Source of the DNA: Vineibacter terrae
GTDB taxonomy: Bacteria; Pseudomonadota; Alphaproteobacteria; Reyranellales; Reyranellaceae
Assembly: GCF_008039615.1 (NCBI RefSeq)
Contig: NZ_VDUZ01000018.1
Coordinates: forward strand, 1-64,000
Length of the DNA stretch: 64,000 bases
Direction of reading: 5' to 3'
Position 1 is the first letter of the stretch; every line of letters begins with the position of its first letter. The position numbers were made by a program, and so were the translations under genes. A model generated the notes under the pieces. It was not told the origin of the DNA. It was given only the letters and a program-made list of their open reading frames with translations, and did not search any database. Below are positions 53,223 to 60,334 of this stretch, one piece after another.

Positions 53223-54194
53223 TCAGTCGACCGTCGCGCCCGACGCCTTCACGACCTTCGCCCACTTCTCGATCTCGGCCCTCACGAACGTGCCCAGCTC
53301 GGCCGGCGAGGAAGTGATCACCTCGAAGCCCGCCTTGGCGGCCACATCCTTGACCTCCGGCAGGGCCATGGCCTTCAGGATATCGCCGTTGAGCCGGGTC
53401 ACGATGTCGGCCGGCATGCCGGCCGGCGCGAACAGGGCGAACCAGGCATCCGATTCGAAGCCGGGGAACAGCGTCTCGGCCACGGTTGGCACACCGGGCA
53501 GGGCCGGCGCGCGCGCCTTGCCGGTGGTGGCCAGCGGCCGCAGCTTGCCGGCGCGGATCTGGCCGATCACCGACGGCATGGTCTGGAAGCTCGTCGACAC
53601 CTGGCCGCTGACCAGGTCCTGCACGGCCGGCGCGGTGCCCTTGTACGGCACATGCGTCAGGTCGATCTTGGCCAGGCCTTTGAACAGCTCCATCGTCAGA
53701 TGCGAGGCCGAGCCGTTGCCGGTCGAGGCATAGTTCACCTTGCCGCCCTGGGCCTTGGCCCAGGCGACGAAGCCACGGATGTCGGTGGCTGGCACGTCGG
53801 GGTGCACCACCAGCACATGAGTGACCCCCGCCACCAGGGCGATCGGCGCGAAATCCTTGGCCGCATCGTAGGGGTGGTTCGGGAACAGGCTCTGGTTCGT
53901 GGCGTGGGTGGCATTGTTGCCCATCACCAGTGTGTAGCCGTCGGCCGGCGCCTTGGCGACGAGGTCGCTGCCCAGGTTGCCGCTGGCGCCCGGCTTGTTG
54001 TCGACGATCACCTGCTGGCCCAGCGTCGCCGTCAGCCGCTCGGCAATCACGCGGGCCAGGACGTCCGTGGAGCCGCCGGCCGGGTACGGCACGACCAGGC
54101 GGATCGGCTTGGCCGGCCAGGACTGTGCCCGGGCCGCGGGCGCAGCAGCCAACAGGCTGAGGCCGGCAAGGAACGAACGGCGGTGAAACGGCAT
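53223..54194 (-). CDS. Bug-family (tripartite tricarboxylate transporter) substrate-binding protein
   Basis: A 323-residue periplasmic binding protein with a Tat-like signal (MPFHRRSFLAGLSLLAAAPA, cleaved after ARAQ). The Bug signature is clear: KPIRLVVPYPAGGSTDVLAR, QVIVDNKPGASGNLGSDLVA, LVMGNNATHATN and VNYASTGNGSASHLTMELF. It captures carboxylates or related ligands. No TctA or TctB membrane genes are adjacent, so it is an orphan receptor, as is common for Bug proteins. The start at 54194 is preferred over a TTG at 54206. Convergent with the LytTR gene. Confidence 0.92.
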   Translation of the reverse strand: MPFHRRSFLAGLSLLAAAPAARAQSWPAKPIRLVVPYPAGGSTDVLARVIAERLTATLGQQVIVDNKPGASGNLGSDLVAKAPADGYTLVMGNNATHATNQSLFPNHPYDAAKDFAPIALVAGVTHVLVVHPDVPATDIRGFVAWAKAQGGKVNYASTGNGSASHLTMELFKGLAKIDLTHVPYKGTAPAVQDLVSGQVSTSFQTMPSVIGQIRAGKLRPLATTGKARAPALPGVPTVAETLFPGFESDAWFALFAPAGMPADIVTRLNGDILKAMALPEVKDVAAKAGFEVITSSPAELGTFVRAEIEKWAKVVKASGATVD

Positions 54195-54437
54195 GAAGAA
54201 CCCCAAGAAAACCCGGAAATCACAGGCGCTGTCGCCTTAACATGCGCCGCCCGTAGTGACCTCGGTGGATTTTGCGCGTCGGGTTTTCGCAGGTGGGCTT
54301 CAAGGCGGCTGTAGCGCGCGTGCTGGACAACAGCTGGCATCTGTGGTGCGGGTAGCGCACCGGCGCCCTCTTCCCGCCCGATTCTCGGTCGAACGTAACG
54401 TCATGCCGGTCGTTTGTTTCGACCGGCTATTTTCGTG

Positions 54438-56591
54438 ATGACCGCCGCCGATTATCCCATCGCCCTGCCGCCGCGCCACGCGCTGCACGAATATCGGATC
54501 GAGCGGGTGCTGGGCCATGGCGGCTTCGGCATCACCTACCTCGCCGTCGATTCGACGCTGCGCAAGAAGGTCGCGCTGAAGGAGTATCTGCCGGCCCAGT
54601 TCGCCGTGCGCGTCGAGGGCGCCACGGTGATGCCACGCACGCGCCGGCTGGCGGACGACTACCGCTGGGGTCTGGAGCGCTTCCTCGACGAGGCGCGCAC
54701 CCTGGCACGTTTCCGTCACGTCAACATCGTGCCGGTGCTGCGGTTCTTCGAGGCCAACGGCACGGCCTACATCGTCATGGAATACGAGGAGGGGCGGCCG
54801 CTGGCGGCCTTGCTGGCCGGTCCGGGCCGCCTGCCGCCGGTCCGGGTCCGGGCGCTGCTCGATGGCCTGATGGACGGGCTGGCGCAGATCCATGCTGCCG
54901 GCTTCCTGCACCGCGACATCAAGCCATCCAACGTCATCGTGCGCGCCGACGGCACGCCGGTGCTGATCGATTTCGGCGCGGCGCGGCAGGCGCTGCTGCG
55001 CGGCGGGGCCACGCTCACCAGCATCGTCACCCCGCGCTATGCGCCGCTGGAGCAGTACCAGGCCGAGGCCGAGCAGGGGCCGTGGACCGACATCTATGCT
55101 CTGGCCGCCGTGGCGCGGCACGCCATCACCGGCGAGCCGCCGCCGGAAGCGCCGGGGCGGGTGCGCAAGGATCCGTGCCGGCCTTTGGCCGACGGCGACA
55201 TCGCCGGTTACGGCAAGCCGTTCCTGGCCGCCATCGATCACGGCTTGGCCGTGCATCCCGAGGATCGGCCGCAGACGATCGCCGCCTGGCGCGAAGCGAT
55301 GGGCGTGCCGCCACCCCATGTTGCGCCGGAACCGGACACCGCGGCCGAAGACGTGCCGGCCGCCGCCCGCACGCGCCTGATGTCGGCGCCGTTGACCCAG
55401 GCCGTGCCGGCGCCGCGGGCCGCGGCGGCGAAGGCGGCGGTGATGCCGATCCGTCTGGGCGGCGCCGACGACACGCACCGCGTGCGGCCGGCGGTGCCGG
55501 TTCCGCCGCGCCGCTCCGGCCGGATGCTGGGCCGCTTGCTGAGCCTTGTTGTCGCCACGGCTGTGCTGGGGGCCGGCGTCTATGCATGGCAGAAGCTGCC
55601 GGACGGCAGCGATGCGCCGCCGCGGCCTGACGCCAAGCCGCCGTCCAGCGCGACGGCGCCGCCGCCGGTTGCCGTGCCGCCGTCGACCAGGACAGCAGGC
55701 ACCCCCGGTAGGCACATGCCGGAGTCCAAGGGCGACCCGGTGCCGCTGCGGCCGCCGGCCAACCCGGAACCGCCCCCGGGTCAGATCGGGTCGATCGATG
55801 ACCTGCTGCGTCGCGGCGATGCGCCGCCGCCGGCTGCTGCGCCGGTGTCGGCCACGGCCAAGGCCGGGCGCGACAGGGTGATGGAAACGACGCTCCAGGC
55901 TGCCACCCAGGCGAAGGCGGCAGCCGATCTTGCGGCGCAGGCCCAGCGGCGCGCCCAGGCGCGCGCCGGCGATGCCCGGATCCGGGCCGCCGAGGCCGGC
56001 AAGCCCGACCTCGCGGCGGTCGAGCATCTGACCTTCGACGATGGCTCGAGCTATGCCGGCCAGCTCGCCGACGGCCGGCGCGGCGGCCTGGGCGTGGCCG
56101 AGCTGCGCGGCGGCGAGCACCAGGCCGGCGACTGGAAGGCCGATCGTCTCGATGGCCTGGGTGTCCTGCAGGCCAGCGATGGCCGCGGCTACGAAGGCGA
56201 GTGGCGCAACGGGATGCCCGATGGCGTCGGCATGTTCAAGCTGGGGCCCGACGAGCGCTATTTCGGCGAGGTGAAGGGCGGCCAGCCGCAGGGTGCAGGG
56301 GTGCGGGTGCTGGGTGACGGGCGCGAGACGACCACGCTCGCCGGCATGTGGCAGAACGGCGTGCTGGAAGGCCCGGGTGTCGAGACGACGTCCTCGGGCT
56401 GGCGCTACGAGGGTGGCTTCCGCGGCGGCAAGCGCCACGGCCCCGGCACGCTCACGGCGCCCGACGGCAGACGCTTTCACGGAACGTTTGTCGATGGCGT
56501 CGCTGACGGCTACGGTGTCTCCGTTGCACCCGATGGCCGCATGTCGTCGGGCGAGTGGCGTGCGGGCAACCTGGCGCGCGCCGACGACTAG
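54438..56591 (+). CDS. Membrane Ser/Thr protein kinase with periplasmic MORN repeats
   Basis: A 717-residue fusion. Residues about 18-290 are a Hanks-type kinase: glycine loop GHGGFG at 26-31, Lys48 in VALKEY, HRDIKPSN with Asp160, DFG at 178-180 and the activation segment VTPRYAPLEQY. One membrane helix lies at about 364-384 (GRLLSLVVATAVLGAGVYAW). A Pro-rich linker and a coiled-coil-like Ala/Gln/Arg stretch lead into MORN-type repeats at about 533-710 (SSYAGQLADGRRGGLGV, GYEGEWRNGMPDGVGMF, WRYEGGFRGGKRHGPGTL). The kinase faces the cytoplasm and the repeats the periplasm, so it could sense the envelope. The antiporter gene follows after 45 bases. Confidence 0.92.
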   Translation: MTAADYPIALPPRHALHEYRIERVLGHGGFGITYLAVDSTLRKKVALKEYLPAQFAVRVEGATVMPRTRRLADDYRWGLERFLDEARTLARFRHVNIVPVLRFFEANGTAYIVMEYEEGRPLAALLAGPGRLPPVRVRALLDGLMDGLAQIHAAGFLHRDIKPSNVIVRADGTPVLIDFGAARQALLRGGATLTSIVTPRYAPLEQYQAEAEQGPWTDIYALAAVARHAITGEPPPEAPGRVRKDPCRPLADGDIAGYGKPFLAAIDHGLAVHPEDRPQTIAAWREAMGVPPPHVAPEPDTAAEDVPAAARTRLMSAPLTQAVPAPRAAAAKAAVMPIRLGGADDTHRVRPAVPVPPRRSGRMLGRLLSLVVATAVLGAGVYAWQKLPDGSDAPPRPDAKPPSSATAPPPVAVPPSTRTAGTPGRHMPESKGDPVPLRPPANPEPPPGQIGSIDDLLRRGDAPPPAAAPVSATAKAGRDRVMETTLQAATQAKAAADLAAQAQRRAQARAGDARIRAAEAGKPDLAAVEHLTFDDGSSYAGQLADGRRGGLGVAELRGGEHQAGDWKADRLDGLGVLQASDGRGYEGEWRNGMPDGVGMFKLGPDERYFGEVKGGQPQGAGVRVLGDGRETTTLAGMWQNGVLEGPGVETTSSGWRYEGGFRGGKRHGPGTLTAPDGRRFHGTFVDGVADGYGVSVAPDGRMSSGEWRAGNLARADD

Positions 56592-56636
56592 GGGAAGCCG
56601 GCGCGCGTCGTCGGCACGGCGACGCACGAGGGCTGC

Positions 56637-59105
56637 TTGACGGAAATTGTCGTCGCGATATTGGCGATCGCGCTGGCATTGGTGCTGGTCAGCGTGCTGC
56701 TGCCGGTGGCCGAGCGCCTGCGCATCCCCCACACCGTGCTGCTGGCTGTCCTGGGTATCGCGCTCGGCGTCACCGGGGCGTGGCTGGTCGGTGAGACCGA
56801 GCGGTTCGGCCTGCTCGGTGATTTCTTCGAAGGGTTGACCGCGGTCGGCGTCAGTCCTGCGGCATTCCTCTACATCTTCCTGCCGCCACTGCTGTTCACC
56901 GCCGGCCTGACCATCGACGTGCGCCGTCTGTTCGACGAGATGTCGGCGGTGCTGCTGCTGGCGATCGTGGCCGTGTTCGTCTGCATCGGGGTGGTGGGCG
57001 GTGTTGTCCACGCCGTGACGGGCATCGATATTTTCGTCTGCCTGCTGCTCGGCGCCATTGTCTCGACCACCGACCCGGCGGCCGTCATCGGCATCCTGCG
57101 CGAGGTCGGCGCGCCCAAGCGCCTGTCGATCCTCGCCGAGGGCGAAGCGCTGTTCAACGACGCCGCGGCCATCGCCACCTTCACCATCCTGATCGACGTG
57201 CTGGTGCATCACATCGTGCCGGACGCGGCCGCTCCGGGGCTCGACTTCCTGCGCGAGTTCGTGGGCGGCATCATGCTGGGCATCGTGCTGGCCCATGTGG
57301 CGCTGTTCATCGTCACGCGCCTCGGCGGCTCGATCACCGGCCTGGCCTCCGTCACCGTCGGCCTCGCCTATGTCGCCTACATCCTGGGCGACCAGTACCT
57401 GCACGTATCCGGCGTGGTGGCCGTCGTGGTGGCGGCGCTGACCCTGGCGACGCTGGGGCCGACGCGCCTGCAGCCGCACCAGTGGGAAGCATTGCGCCAT
57501 ACCTGGCACCAGCTCGAATTCTGGGCCAACTCCCTGATCTTCCTGCTGGCCGCCATCGTGGCGGTGCGGGTCCTGGCCGGCATCCGCTGGTGGCACCTCG
57601 TCGCCGTCGCGGCGCTCTACATCGCCGCCTTCGGCGCCCGTGCCCTGGTGCTGTTCGGGCTGCTGCCGGTGCTCGAGTTCTTCGGCCGCGTACAGCCTGT
57701 CGACCGCCGCTACAAGACCATGATCGTCTGGGGCGGCCTGCGCGGCGCCGTGACTGTGGCGCTGGCCCTGGTGGCCTACGGCAATGACAGGCTGCCGCAG
57801 GACGTCCGCGATTTCGTGGCCATCATCGCCACGCTGTTCGTGCTTGCCACCCTGTTCATCAACGCGCCCACCCTGCGACCGCTGATGCGCTTCTTCCGCC
57901 TGAACGAGCTCGACGAGACCGACAAGGCCCTGCGCGACCGGGTGCTGCTGCTGTCCTGGGCATCGGTGGCGGCGCAGGTGCGCGACGTCGCCAAGGTCTA
58001 TGGCGCCGACGCCGACATCGCGCAGCGCCTGCCGCACCTGGAAGCCGGCGATGCCGCGATGTCGGCGGGGGGCGACATCGCCCTGCCGATGGACAAGCGG
58101 ATCGCCTACGGGTTGCGCACGCTCTGCGCCCGCGAGCGCGAGCTCTATCTCTGGCGCTTCGGCCAGCAGTCGATCTCACGGCACATCGCCACCATGCTGG
58201 TGGTCGACGCCGACCGGCTGATCGACCAAGTGCAGACCGATGGCGTCGCCGGCTACGCGCTGGCGCTGCAGCAGGACGTCATGCTCGATCGCGGTTTTCG
58301 CATCGCGCTGTGGCTGCACCAGACCTTCGGCCTGGAGAGGCCGCTTGCCGACCGCCTAGCCGATCGCTTCGAGACTCTATTGGTCGAGCGCAGCGTGATG
58401 CACGAGCTGATCGACTTCAACCGCGCCGACATGGCGGACCTGCTGGGCGAGCCGGTCGCCGACAAGCTGCACGCGCTGCTCGACGAGCGGCTGCAGGGCA
58501 TCGATGGCGCGCTCAAGGCATTGTCGCTGCAGTACGGTGACTATGCCGACACCATTCGCGCCCAGCACTTGCAGCGCATCGCGATCCGCCTCGAGTCGGC
58601 GGAATACGACCGCCAGCGCCGCAACTTCGCCATCAGCCAGGAGGTCTATCGCGACCTGCAGCATGCCCTGCAGGAGCGCCGTGCCGAGGCAGCGCGTCGT
58701 CCGCCGTTGCGGCTGGGCCTCAAGCTCACCGCGATGGTCGAGCGCGTGCCGCTGTTCGCGGGCTTGGCGGCCGGCGAGGTCTCGGCGGTCGGCAGGCTGC
58801 TGCGCGCCCGCGTCGTGCTGCCGGGGCAGAAGATCGTCACCCGCGGCGAGCGCGGCGATGCGATGTACTTCATCGCTGCCGGGGTCGCGCAGGTGAAGCT
58901 GGCGATGGGCGACGTCGAGCTGGGTGAAGGCGCCTTCTTCGGCGAGGTGGCGCTGCTGGAGCACAAGCCGCGCAACGCCGATGTCGTCGCCAAAGGCGTC
59001 TGCCATCTGCTGCGGCTCGACGCGCGTGATTTCCGCCGCCTGCTGGCTGCCCGTCCTGACATGCGCCAGGAGATCGAGAGCGTGGCCGCGCAGCGGCGCG
59101 GCTAG
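56637..59105 (+). CDS. Na+/H+ antiporter (CPA1 family) with C-terminal cyclic-nucleotide-binding-like domain
   Basis: An 822-residue cation/proton exchanger. The first ~420 residues hold about twelve helices with CPA1 hallmarks FLPPLLFTAGLTID, GAIVSTTDPAAVIGIL, ILAEGEALFNDAAAI and VWGGLRGAVTVALALV. A long helical cytoplasmic region follows, then a cNMP-binding-like domain at 704-822 (VPLFAGLAAGEVSAVGRLLR, VTRGERGDAMYFIAAG, FFGEVALLEHKPRNADVV). The phosphate-binding cassette has Asn where Ser or Thr is usual. The start is TTG 56637 with GAGGG eight bases upstream. A hairpin terminator lies at 59113. Confidence 0.9.
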   Translation: MTEIVVAILAIALALVLVSVLLPVAERLRIPHTVLLAVLGIALGVTGAWLVGETERFGLLGDFFEGLTAVGVSPAAFLYIFLPPLLFTAGLTIDVRRLFDEMSAVLLLAIVAVFVCIGVVGGVVHAVTGIDIFVCLLLGAIVSTTDPAAVIGILREVGAPKRLSILAEGEALFNDAAAIATFTILIDVLVHHIVPDAAAPGLDFLREFVGGIMLGIVLAHVALFIVTRLGGSITGLASVTVGLAYVAYILGDQYLHVSGVVAVVVAALTLATLGPTRLQPHQWEALRHTWHQLEFWANSLIFLLAAIVAVRVLAGIRWWHLVAVAALYIAAFGARALVLFGLLPVLEFFGRVQPVDRRYKTMIVWGGLRGAVTVALALVAYGNDRLPQDVRDFVAIIATLFVLATLFINAPTLRPLMRFFRLNELDETDKALRDRVLLLSWASVAAQVRDVAKVYGADADIAQRLPHLEAGDAAMSAGGDIALPMDKRIAYGLRTLCARERELYLWRFGQQSISRHIATMLVVDADRLIDQVQTDGVAGYALALQQDVMLDRGFRIALWLHQTFGLERPLADRLADRFETLLVERSVMHELIDFNRADMADLLGEPVADKLHALLDERLQGIDGALKALSLQYGDYADTIRAQHLQRIAIRLESAEYDRQRRNFAISQEVYRDLQHALQERRAEAARRPPLRLGLKLTAMVERVPLFAGLAAGEVSAVGRLLRARVVLPGQKIVTRGERGDAMYFIAAGVAQVKLAMGDVELGEGAFFGEVALLEHKPRNADVVAKGVCHLLRLDARDFRRLLAARPDMRQEIESVAAQRRG

Positions 59106-59112
59106 CTCATGT

Positions 59113-59184
59113 GGGAGCGCCGGCTTCCAGCCGGTTCATGATTTCGGCGCTTCGCGCCGATGCCGGCTGGAAGCTGGCGCTCCC
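59113..59184. terminator. Nested long hairpin after the antiporter gene
   Basis: GGGAGCGCCGGCTTCCAGCC (59113 on) pairs with GGCTGGAAGCTGGCGCTCCC (ending 59184) with one mismatch over 22 positions. Inside it TCGGCGC-TTC-GCGCCGA (59144-59160) forms a second hairpin. The long arms look like a mobile palindromic repeat recruited as a terminator. Confidence 0.65.
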
Positions 59185-59446
59185 GTCCATGTCTGGTCGC
59201 TGATGCGCCTGTCAGCGCAGCGAGGATCGCCTGCGAGGGACGCACGGGCTCCATTCATGGGAATTTTCTCACGGAAATCGTGGCCATCGGCCCGGTCACC
59301 AAAAAATCTTTGTTCACTTGAATGATTGTTCTCAGGAAATGAGCGCTCATCTTAAAAGGCAAAAAAAGGTTTGCTATCAAGCTATTGGGCGTTAAAACTG
59401 CCGTTGCATTTCTGCAACACCTCCCCCGCAGCGGAGTGAAGCGTTC
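59185..59446. other. A/T-rich upstream region of the DUF882 peptidase gene
   Basis: No gene is seen in this stretch. Between about 59290 and 59400 the DNA is clearly richer in A/T than elsewhere (AAAAAATC, AAAAAAAGG). The best promoter-like pair is TTTGCT (59370-59375) and TAAAAC (59393-59398) with 17 bases between them. GTTGCATTTCTGCAAC at 59402 is a short hairpin in the leader. Confidence 0.4.
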
Positions 59447-60334
59447 ATGACGGCCGCAAAGTTTGTAACGGCGTTGCTGGCGTTCGGTGTCGGCATGTCG
59501 ATCGTTTCTTCCGGAATGGCGCAGTCGACGGCATTGCCGCCGGCGGTGAAGCAAGCTCCCCCCAAAAAGGTCACAGCCAAGCGGGCGGTCGCGACGGCGC
59601 AGAAGCCGGTCACCAAGCCTGTGGCCGCTTCCCGCAACGTCAAGGGCACGGCCACCCGCCCGGCGACGGTCGCGAAGACGACGGGATCGAAAACCGCTGT
59701 CGGCAAGCCGGGCCAGCAGGTGGCGGCGCGGCAGGTCGCGCGCGGGCCGGTGGCGCGGGCCAATGGCGGGCGGGCGATCAGCTCGCGGGCGCCCTCGACG
59801 CTGCGCAGCACGCGCTTCGGCGCCGTGCCGGTGATGCCTTCGCTCTATGCTCCGCCGCAGGAGAAGCTGCCGCCGCCGCCCGATGACGGCAGCCCGCGGA
59901 CGCTGTCGTTCTATTCCGTCAACACCCAGGAATCGGTCACGGTCACCTACCGGCGCGACGGCCGCTATGTGCAGTCCGAGCTCGACAAGGTGAACGCGTT
60001 CCTGCGCGATTCGCGCAACGGCGATCAGGTCCAGATGGACCCGCAGCTGTTCGACGTGCTGTGGCACGTGCAGCGCAACCTGGGCACGGACGGCCCCTAC
60101 CAGGTGCTGTCGGCCTATCGCTCGCCGGAGACCAATGCCTGGCTGGCCAGCGCCAGCCGCGGCGTGGCCTCCGACAGCCTGCACATGCGCGGCCAGGCGA
60201 TGGACGTGAAGCTGCCGGGCTTCTCGCCGTACCAGATCCGCGAGGCGGCGCGCGCGCTGGGCCTCGGCGGCGTCGGCTACTACCCGCGTTCAGGCTTCGT
60301 GCACCTCGACACCGGGCCGGTGCGCTACTGGTGA
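59447..60334 (+). CDS. DUF882 / peptidase M15-like periplasmic protein
   Basis: A 295-residue exported protein (signal KFVTALLAFGVGMSIVSSGM, cleaved near MAQ). Residues 30-140 are a basic Lys/Thr/Ala/Val-rich disordered stretch. The C-terminal ~150 residues are the DUF882/YcbK domain: RTLSFYSVNTQESVTVTYRR, YQVLSAYRSPETNAWLA, the zinc-ligand region SDSLHMRGQAMDVKLPG and GFVHLDTGPVRYW. It probably cuts or binds peptidoglycan peptides. It has a probable promoter in the A/T-rich region upstream and an intrinsic terminator after it. Confidence 0.9.
   Translation: MTAAKFVTALLAFGVGMSIVSSGMAQSTALPPAVKQAPPKKVTAKRAVATAQKPVTKPVAASRNVKGTATRPATVAKTTGSKTAVGKPGQQVAARQVARGPVARANGGRAISSRAPSTLRSTRFGAVPVMPSLYAPPQEKLPPPPDDGSPRTLSFYSVNTQESVTVTYRRDGRYVQSELDKVNAFLRDSRNGDQVQMDPQLFDVLWHVQRNLGTDGPYQVLSAYRSPETNAWLASASRGVASDSLHMRGQAMDVKLPGFSPYQIREAARALGLGGVGYYPRSGFVHLDTGPVRYW

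Follow-up and report, generated by a model that had tools for sequence, protein, structure and literature searches.

The combination of a Na+/H+ exchanger and a C-terminal cNMP-binding domain (CNBD) in one protein is found in plant SOS1 (AtSOS1 7y3e/8jd9, OsSOS1 8iwo/8j2m) and in the sperm Na+/H+ exchanger SLC9C1. In Arabidopsis, a beta-CTD and then an autoinhibitory tail follow the CNBD of SOS1, the Arg of the phosphate-binding cassette is replaced, and SOS1 is activated by the kinase SOS2; salt tolerance was not reduced when the reported SOS2 sites S1136/S1138 were altered, and further sites are suspected (excerpts of PMC10372031). SLC9C1 additionally carries a voltage-sensor domain, and neutral replacement of the equivalent cassette Arg abolished the effect of cAMP (excerpts of PMC6052114). 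The exchanger-CNBD combination has been called 'not present in bacteria' (review, excerpts of PMC7573149), and the terms 'cyclic nucleotide', 'cNMP' and 'SOS1' have 0 occurrences in a review of prokaryotic Na+/H+ exchangers (PMC9408914). Among the matches listed for the open-licence literature, titles and abstract openings described neither bacterial exchanger-CNBD proteins nor bacterial MORN kinases, and the matches listed on Reyranella genomes hold nothing on the kinase or antiporter genes treated here. The present locus from Vineibacter terrae encodes an antiporter with the domain order of SOS1, placed directly behind a kinase with MORN repeats.

The locus and its two proteins

The window, i.e. 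the whole stretch of DNA analysed, comprises the initial 64 kb of contig C18 in a genome of 8.76 Mb. The elements of the locus are as follows:

54405..54427, + strand: hairpin with an 8-pair stem and a T-rich tail, a terminator-like scan match 10 bases 5' of the kinase ATG
54438..56591, + strand: kinase gene, ORF of 717 aa counted from the ATG
56592..56636, + strand: intergenic gap between kinase and antiporter genes, 45 bases as read from the sequence
56637..59105, + strand: antiporter gene, ORF of 822 aa with a TTG start
58935..58991, + strand: phosphate-binding cassette FFGEVALLEHKPRNADVVA, antiporter residues 767-785
59447..60334, + strand: DUF882/M15_2 peptidase-like gene (Pfam PF05951, E 3e-55)

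The preliminary description had recognized a transmembrane MORN Ser/Thr kinase followed, after 45 bases, by a CPA1 antiporter with a C-terminal CNBD, and open reading frames and Pfam agree with this. The two genes are operon-like neighbours on one strand. The shared strand, the 45-base gap and the lack of a promoter-like site within it favour a single transcript, and the genes are probably co-transcribed; the underlying scan of 54150-59500, which returned no promoter-like site, covered sigma-70 only and has little power (0.4 matches expected by chance). An alternative TTG start of the kinase ORF is also open at 54414. The hairpin before the kinase, one of 4 terminator-like matches in the scanned region (2.2 expected), recurs in the leaders of genera g1 and g3 with altered stem letters and possibly serves translational control or attenuation of the kinase. 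Covariation controls over 8 leaders were mixed: 82.8 % of the hairpin cells are paired and 7 cells are double-changed, values each reached by 1/500 shuffles, but neither the number of double-changed pairs nor that of pair types exceeded shuffles (368/500 and 374/500), and the covariation score of 0.335 was slightly surpassed by that of a +3 slide (0.357). The leaders also share a common element 5' of the hairpin (54371-54427 region), and by eye no ribosome-binding site is obvious before the kinase.

The kinase domain (Pfam Pkinase, residues 19-237, E 6e-30) matched PpkA (PDB 5hnv) over residues 9-286 with E 5.2e-64, and with E 3.7e-63 in a PDB sequence search. Following this domain (9-286) are Pro-rich linkers, one predicted transmembrane segment (~363-385), a long helix (472-520) and a MORN beta domain (528-715), the latter matching MORN1 (PDB 6t6q) over 533-715 (E 1e-24). 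Pfam likewise assigned MORN repeats (E 2.3e-22), just 2 of which pass individually. In the AlphaFold model (mean pLDDT 52.7), the MORN strands (528-715) have mostly good confidence and the kinase part is poor. The protein possesses the glycine loop, Lys, HRD, DFG and activation loop of Hanks-type (PpkA-like) Ser/Thr kinases; glycine loop, HRDIKP, DFG and TLTSIVTPRYAP show little or no variation across 7 aligned kinases (that of the window and 6 from genomes with the same gene pair), and the enzyme is predicted from these motifs to be catalytically intact. Compared to PpkA and PknB-like kinases, which have the same kinase domain, it adds the predicted transmembrane segment and the C-terminal MORN domain. 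Classification as a PASTA kinase (PknB/Stk1) was rejected, since the score of 111.2 bits compares with an NCBIfam cut-off of 450 and Pfam detected MORN, but no PASTA. Hydropathy revealed one hydrophobic segment (~363-385) preceded by Arg-rich residues. By the positive-inside rule, this places the MORN domain outside; the predicted topology has the kinase domain inside and the MORN domain in the periplasm. A function of the MORN domain as lipid sensor was set aside, because lipid binding by MORN repeats is doubted in a structural paper (excerpts of PMC7725318).

With 21 Pkinase matches in the genome, this kinase is one among many. Another protein joining kinase and MORN domains (754 aa; L263:5137-7401, contig C1) reads HRDVRP by eye and is devoid of DFG, which suggests that it is probably a pseudokinase. 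At L264:5470-7614 (contig C2), the gene of a 250-aa protein with MORN alone converges on a DUF882/M15_2 gene at a distance of 4 bases, with a similar-looking gene behind this pair; a MORN gene beside an M15_2 gene occurs twice in the genome.

The antiporter consists of an exchanger domain (residues 1-424, with GEALFND and WGGLRGAV; Na_H_Exchanger PF00999, 17-417, E 2.3e-50), a helical cytoplasmic domain (~427-703) and a CNBD (~707-822; cNMP_binding PF00027, 726-804, E 1.3e-16). SLC9C1 and SOS1 ranked first in a PDB sequence search: residues 7-809 aligned to OsSOS1 11-830 nearly end to end, and SLC9C1 was the best match to the exchanger part (22-426). Foldseek returned AtSOS1 (7y3e) as best hit for the AlphaFold model (mean pLDDT 80.8, pTM 0.68; E 3.7e-29, 848 columns, TMq 0.66), with SLC9C1 providing the next-best fold matches; the rmsd of 9.6 against AtSOS1 renders the domain arrangement of the model uncertain, and the exchanger part by itself superimposed on SOS1 (8jda) with an rmsd of 2.9 over 431 columns. 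N174-D175 are invariant in alignments of 21 and of 41 antiporter rows. The protein is thus a CPA1 antiporter of the SOS1 type, a CPA1 exchanger domain being followed by a helical cytoplasmic domain and then the CNBD, and is predicted to perform Na+(K+)/H+ exchange. It resembles the core of SOS1 and not a full SOS1: the order of exchanger, helical cytoplasmic domain and CNBD is shared, whereas the beta-CTD and autoinhibitory tail are not present, the antiporter ending at residue 822 just past the CNBD. SLC9C1 likewise combines an exchanger with a CNBD containing the ligand Glu and Arg, but has a voltage-sensor domain, compared to a middle domain that looks helical and soluble in the model of the present antiporter. 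NhaP-type antiporters (a_cpa1, TIGR00831) differ by the absence of ~400 residues with the CNBD; the exchanger domain matched this family at 169.8 bits, below the cut-off of 279.6. A second SOS1-type antiporter, 44-46 % identical, occurs in two genomes of Reyranella proper (genus g4; G059 and G068, contexts L252 and L253) behind VTT-domain, alpha/beta-hydrolase and YHS-like genes.

The cassette reads FFGEVALLEHKPRNADV starting at antiporter residue 767. Its R-N-A motif had been described beforehand as a change to the phosphate cassette; the letters are correct, the supposed deviation from the family is not. Among 106 distinct rows, the residue following the cassette Arg is most commonly Asn (44 rows; Ser/Thr in 30), and PKA RI-alpha (cAMP-dependent regulatory subunit according to the PDB) reads R-A-A at both sites, so that R-N-A does not point to a lost pocket. 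The antiporter of the window has both ligand residues, Glu770 and Arg779, and a degenerate CNBD was rejected for it on these grounds. Glu770 is kept in 98 and Arg779 in 86 of the 106 rows; both are present in all 9 rows from genomes with the pair and in all 25 rows from g4 and g5, and in the remaining 72 rows Glu is kept 64 times and Arg 52 times. As it retains the Arg that was replaced in Arabidopsis SOS1, the antiporter looks from its residues more ligand-competent than SOS1, and the 40 class III cyclase matches in the same genome represent possible ligand sources. Outside the order, the cassette Arg is missing in 20/72 and the Glu in 8/72 rows. Such Arg-less, in part also Glu-less cassettes were found in Alcaligenaceae, Saccharibacter and some related rows (L096-L104, L106-L110, L112-L114, L244, L247, L248); since the Arg-less rows stand apart in the tree, ligand binding may have disappeared repeatedly.

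Gene neighbourhoods of kinase and antiporter

Of 75 Reyranellaceae genomes surveyed, 70 have the antiporter (E <= 1e-30) and 74 have kinase matches (E <= 1e-50); G001 (g2) yielded no antiporter match. In 9 genomes, the kinase gene is located directly 5' of the antiporter gene. They represent three lineages within one order, namely genera g1 (4/4) and g3 (4/4) of family f1 and the other family, f2 (1/1). Both genes share the strand in these genomes, with gaps of 22-145 bases or an overlap of 36 bases (by open frames). In G075 (f2), the sole genome of the order outside the family and 81 % complete, the kinase lies 75 bases 5' of the antiporter. A genome survey for adjacency, as advised in the preliminary description, hence shows that the pairing is not a singularity of the window genome; a module conserved wherever both genes occur did not emerge either, adjacency missing in g4, g5 and 57 antiporter contexts outside the order.

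In all of these 57 contexts, a kinase resembling that of the window (phmmer E <= 1e-4) was absent, and a universal kinase-antiporter module was rejected on this basis; the contexts extend up to 5 kb per side, some are cut by contig ends, and more divergent kinases escape the search. They derive from 60 genomes of the class outside the family which contain the antiporter, the fragmentary G213, G269 and G300 having been left out. Families f96 and f115 possess the antiporter without a similar kinase (E <= 1e-20) in 5/5 genomes. Among 80 named antiporter loci, 74 are without a similar kinase (E <= 1e-5), many of these matching the exchanger part only, and all 6 that carry the pair are records of the Reyranellaceae family. 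The closest named relative of the antiporter is that of Reyranella sp. CPCC 100927 (86 %).

Both genes are present in 61 of 65 g4 genomes, yet neighbours in none of the 61 (contig tables compared by eye). In most of them, the best kinase and antiporter reside on separate contigs, which is weaker evidence in fragmented assemblies; in G011, G012, G049 and G052 they share one contig at a distance of >2 Mb. In eight antiporter contexts (L076-L083; 7 from g4, 1 from g5), gatC and gatA follow the antiporter, and none of the eight contains a similar kinase. The g4 kinase is instead followed by nitrate/siroheme assimilation genes in all 27 contexts read from the 65 genomes, 22 of them harbouring best-scoring kinases of the survey (L047-L068, L085-L088, L256-L259, L261). 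Directly downstream are genes for an ANTAR regulator, an NMT1-like binding protein or both (22/27), siroheme synthase or a piece thereof (4/27) and nitrite/sulfite reductase (1/27), all presumably serving nitrate assimilation. The distance from the kinase to the next gene is <=66 bases, or the genes overlap, in 25/27 contexts (exceptions G017 and G064), and a NIR gene is located ~4.5-5.3 kb downstream in 4 of 6 ANTAR-type contexts read further. Neither gene set directly follows the kinase in g5 (G071). The slot behind the kinase thus changes its content by lineage, from the antiporter in the pairing genomes to nitrate/siroheme genes in g4. Orthology of the kinases is supported by G012, G052 and G064 (g4), where the M15 and macro-domain neighbours known from the window come after the kinase.

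The DUF882/M15_2 gene lies directly 3' of the antiporter gene in g1 and g3. In G075, an L,D-transpeptidase-like gene (L251:1636-3336) lies between antiporter and M15 genes, such that cell-wall-type enzymes come after the kinase-antiporter pair. The antiporter tree (83 rows; quick search, SH-aLRT only) has G075 outside, followed by g1+g3 as sister to g5+g4 on starred branches. Because this topology tracks the lineages, transfer or hidden paralogy behind the split was rejected. The simplest history has the pair already present in the ancestor of the order, with a single loss on the g4/g5 branch; two separate gains are conceivable.

Shared expression or kinase-substrate link

The lineage-dependent cargo of the kinase suggests that the pairing provides for joint expression and not for a dedicated link between kinase and substrate. 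We consider it somewhat better than an even chance that kinase and antiporter are co-transcribed neighbours, with a general kinase of changing cargo, an antiporter gated mainly by cNMP and no dedicated link between the two. The PpkA-like transmembrane Ser/Thr kinase would read some envelope state through its periplasmic C-terminal MORN domain and, as a more general signalling protein, head a slot filled differently in each lineage. The SOS1-type antiporter would swap Na+ or K+ for H+ and be gated mainly by its own cytoplasmic tail, with cAMP or cGMP acting at the CNBD and probably no specific phosphorylation step involved. Some observations run counter to this explanation: the adjacency persists between f1 and f2 at ~42 % (kinase) and ~53 % (antiporter) identity, so that a functional link could be real, and the retention of both genes, though apart, in 61/65 g4 genomes makes a link in trans conceivable. 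The poor model of the kinase domain also counts against it.

That the genes are neutral neighbours whose order is conserved as part of a long collinear block, each with its own promoter or co-transcribed only incidentally and without common function, appears rather unlikely. Of 13 mutual best pairs between the contig and G075, 11 are collinear, in a series that starts with the kinase and extends to 78 kb (54-78 kb), and conservation of a pair inside this longer block is weak evidence for the pair itself; moreover, in G012, G052 and G064 the kinase stays near the M15 gene and the antiporter is elsewhere. The same-strand gap of 45 bases without a promoter-like site argues against neutrality, within the little power of the sigma-70 scan.

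The preliminary description had proposed that the kinase senses the envelope or ionic state and phosphorylates the antiporter tail, a bacterial parallel of SOS2 acting on SOS1; we regard this as unlikely. Adjacency in 9 genomes of three lineages, the intact catalytic motifs of the kinase and the SOS1 architecture of the antiporter tail are consistent with it, SOS1 being activated by SOS2 (excerpts of PMC10372031). However, the antiporter is devoid of the autoinhibitory tail which bears the reported SOS2 site in SOS1, although the missing plant tail alone does not preclude phosphorylation, considering the outcome for S1136/S1138 and the further sites suspected (excerpts of PMC10372031). A single Ser/Thr column of the tail tracks pairing, versus 0-3 columns for other residue classes in this comparison of low power. 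This column, T519, is Ser/Thr in 8/9 paired and 4/97 unpaired rows, and Ala in G072 (L095), itself a pairing genome. S440, S514 and S630 are Ser/Thr in 9/9 paired rows, but equally so in 25/25 rows from g4 and g5, and thus do not track pairing. A pair-specific phosphosite was rejected, as T519 stands alone, was picked post hoc and shows no enrichment over other residue classes. Furthermore, the kinase heads other genes in g4, and all 57 antiporter contexts read outside the order are without a similar kinase. A dedicated kinase-to-antiporter switch is therefore weakly supported; a regulatory module is possible, but not favoured, and the findings agree better with co-encoded neighbours in which the partner of the kinase changes. 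Quite improbable is a gating of bacterial SOS1-type antiporters by two inputs, cNMP at a ligand-binding CNBD and, in this order, phosphorylation by the co-encoded envelope-sensing MORN kinase, which, if true, would constitute an independent bacterial counterpart of SOS2-SOS1 with the ligand-binding CNBD not lost.

Exchangers with a CNBD in Alphaproteobacteria

The antiporter was detected in 65 of 385 sampled alphaproteobacterial genomes (E <= 1e-70). Both Pfam domains are present in all 41 rows of an alignment that combines the proteins of the window and G075 with those from 39 of the 57 class contexts; in the other alignment, the exchanger was found in 21/21 and the CNBD in 20/21 rows. Alphaproteobacterial exchanger-CNBD proteins thus contradict the statement 'not present in bacteria' (excerpts of PMC7573149); protein databases probably list such architectures already. 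Their wide distribution in Alphaproteobacteria is a firmer point than the kinase link. Regulation of the antiporter would lend the kinase neighbour greater importance, but is not favoured by the comparative data, and it is the antiporter that is more informative, as a bacterial SOS1-type exchanger with the ligand residues of its CNBD kept. The bacterial exchanger-CNBD set shares the design of plant SOS1 and animal SLC9C1 and has mostly retained the ligand residues; a form with neither the plant autoinhibitory tail nor the animal voltage sensor would represent a simple system for the control of an exchanger by a CNBD.
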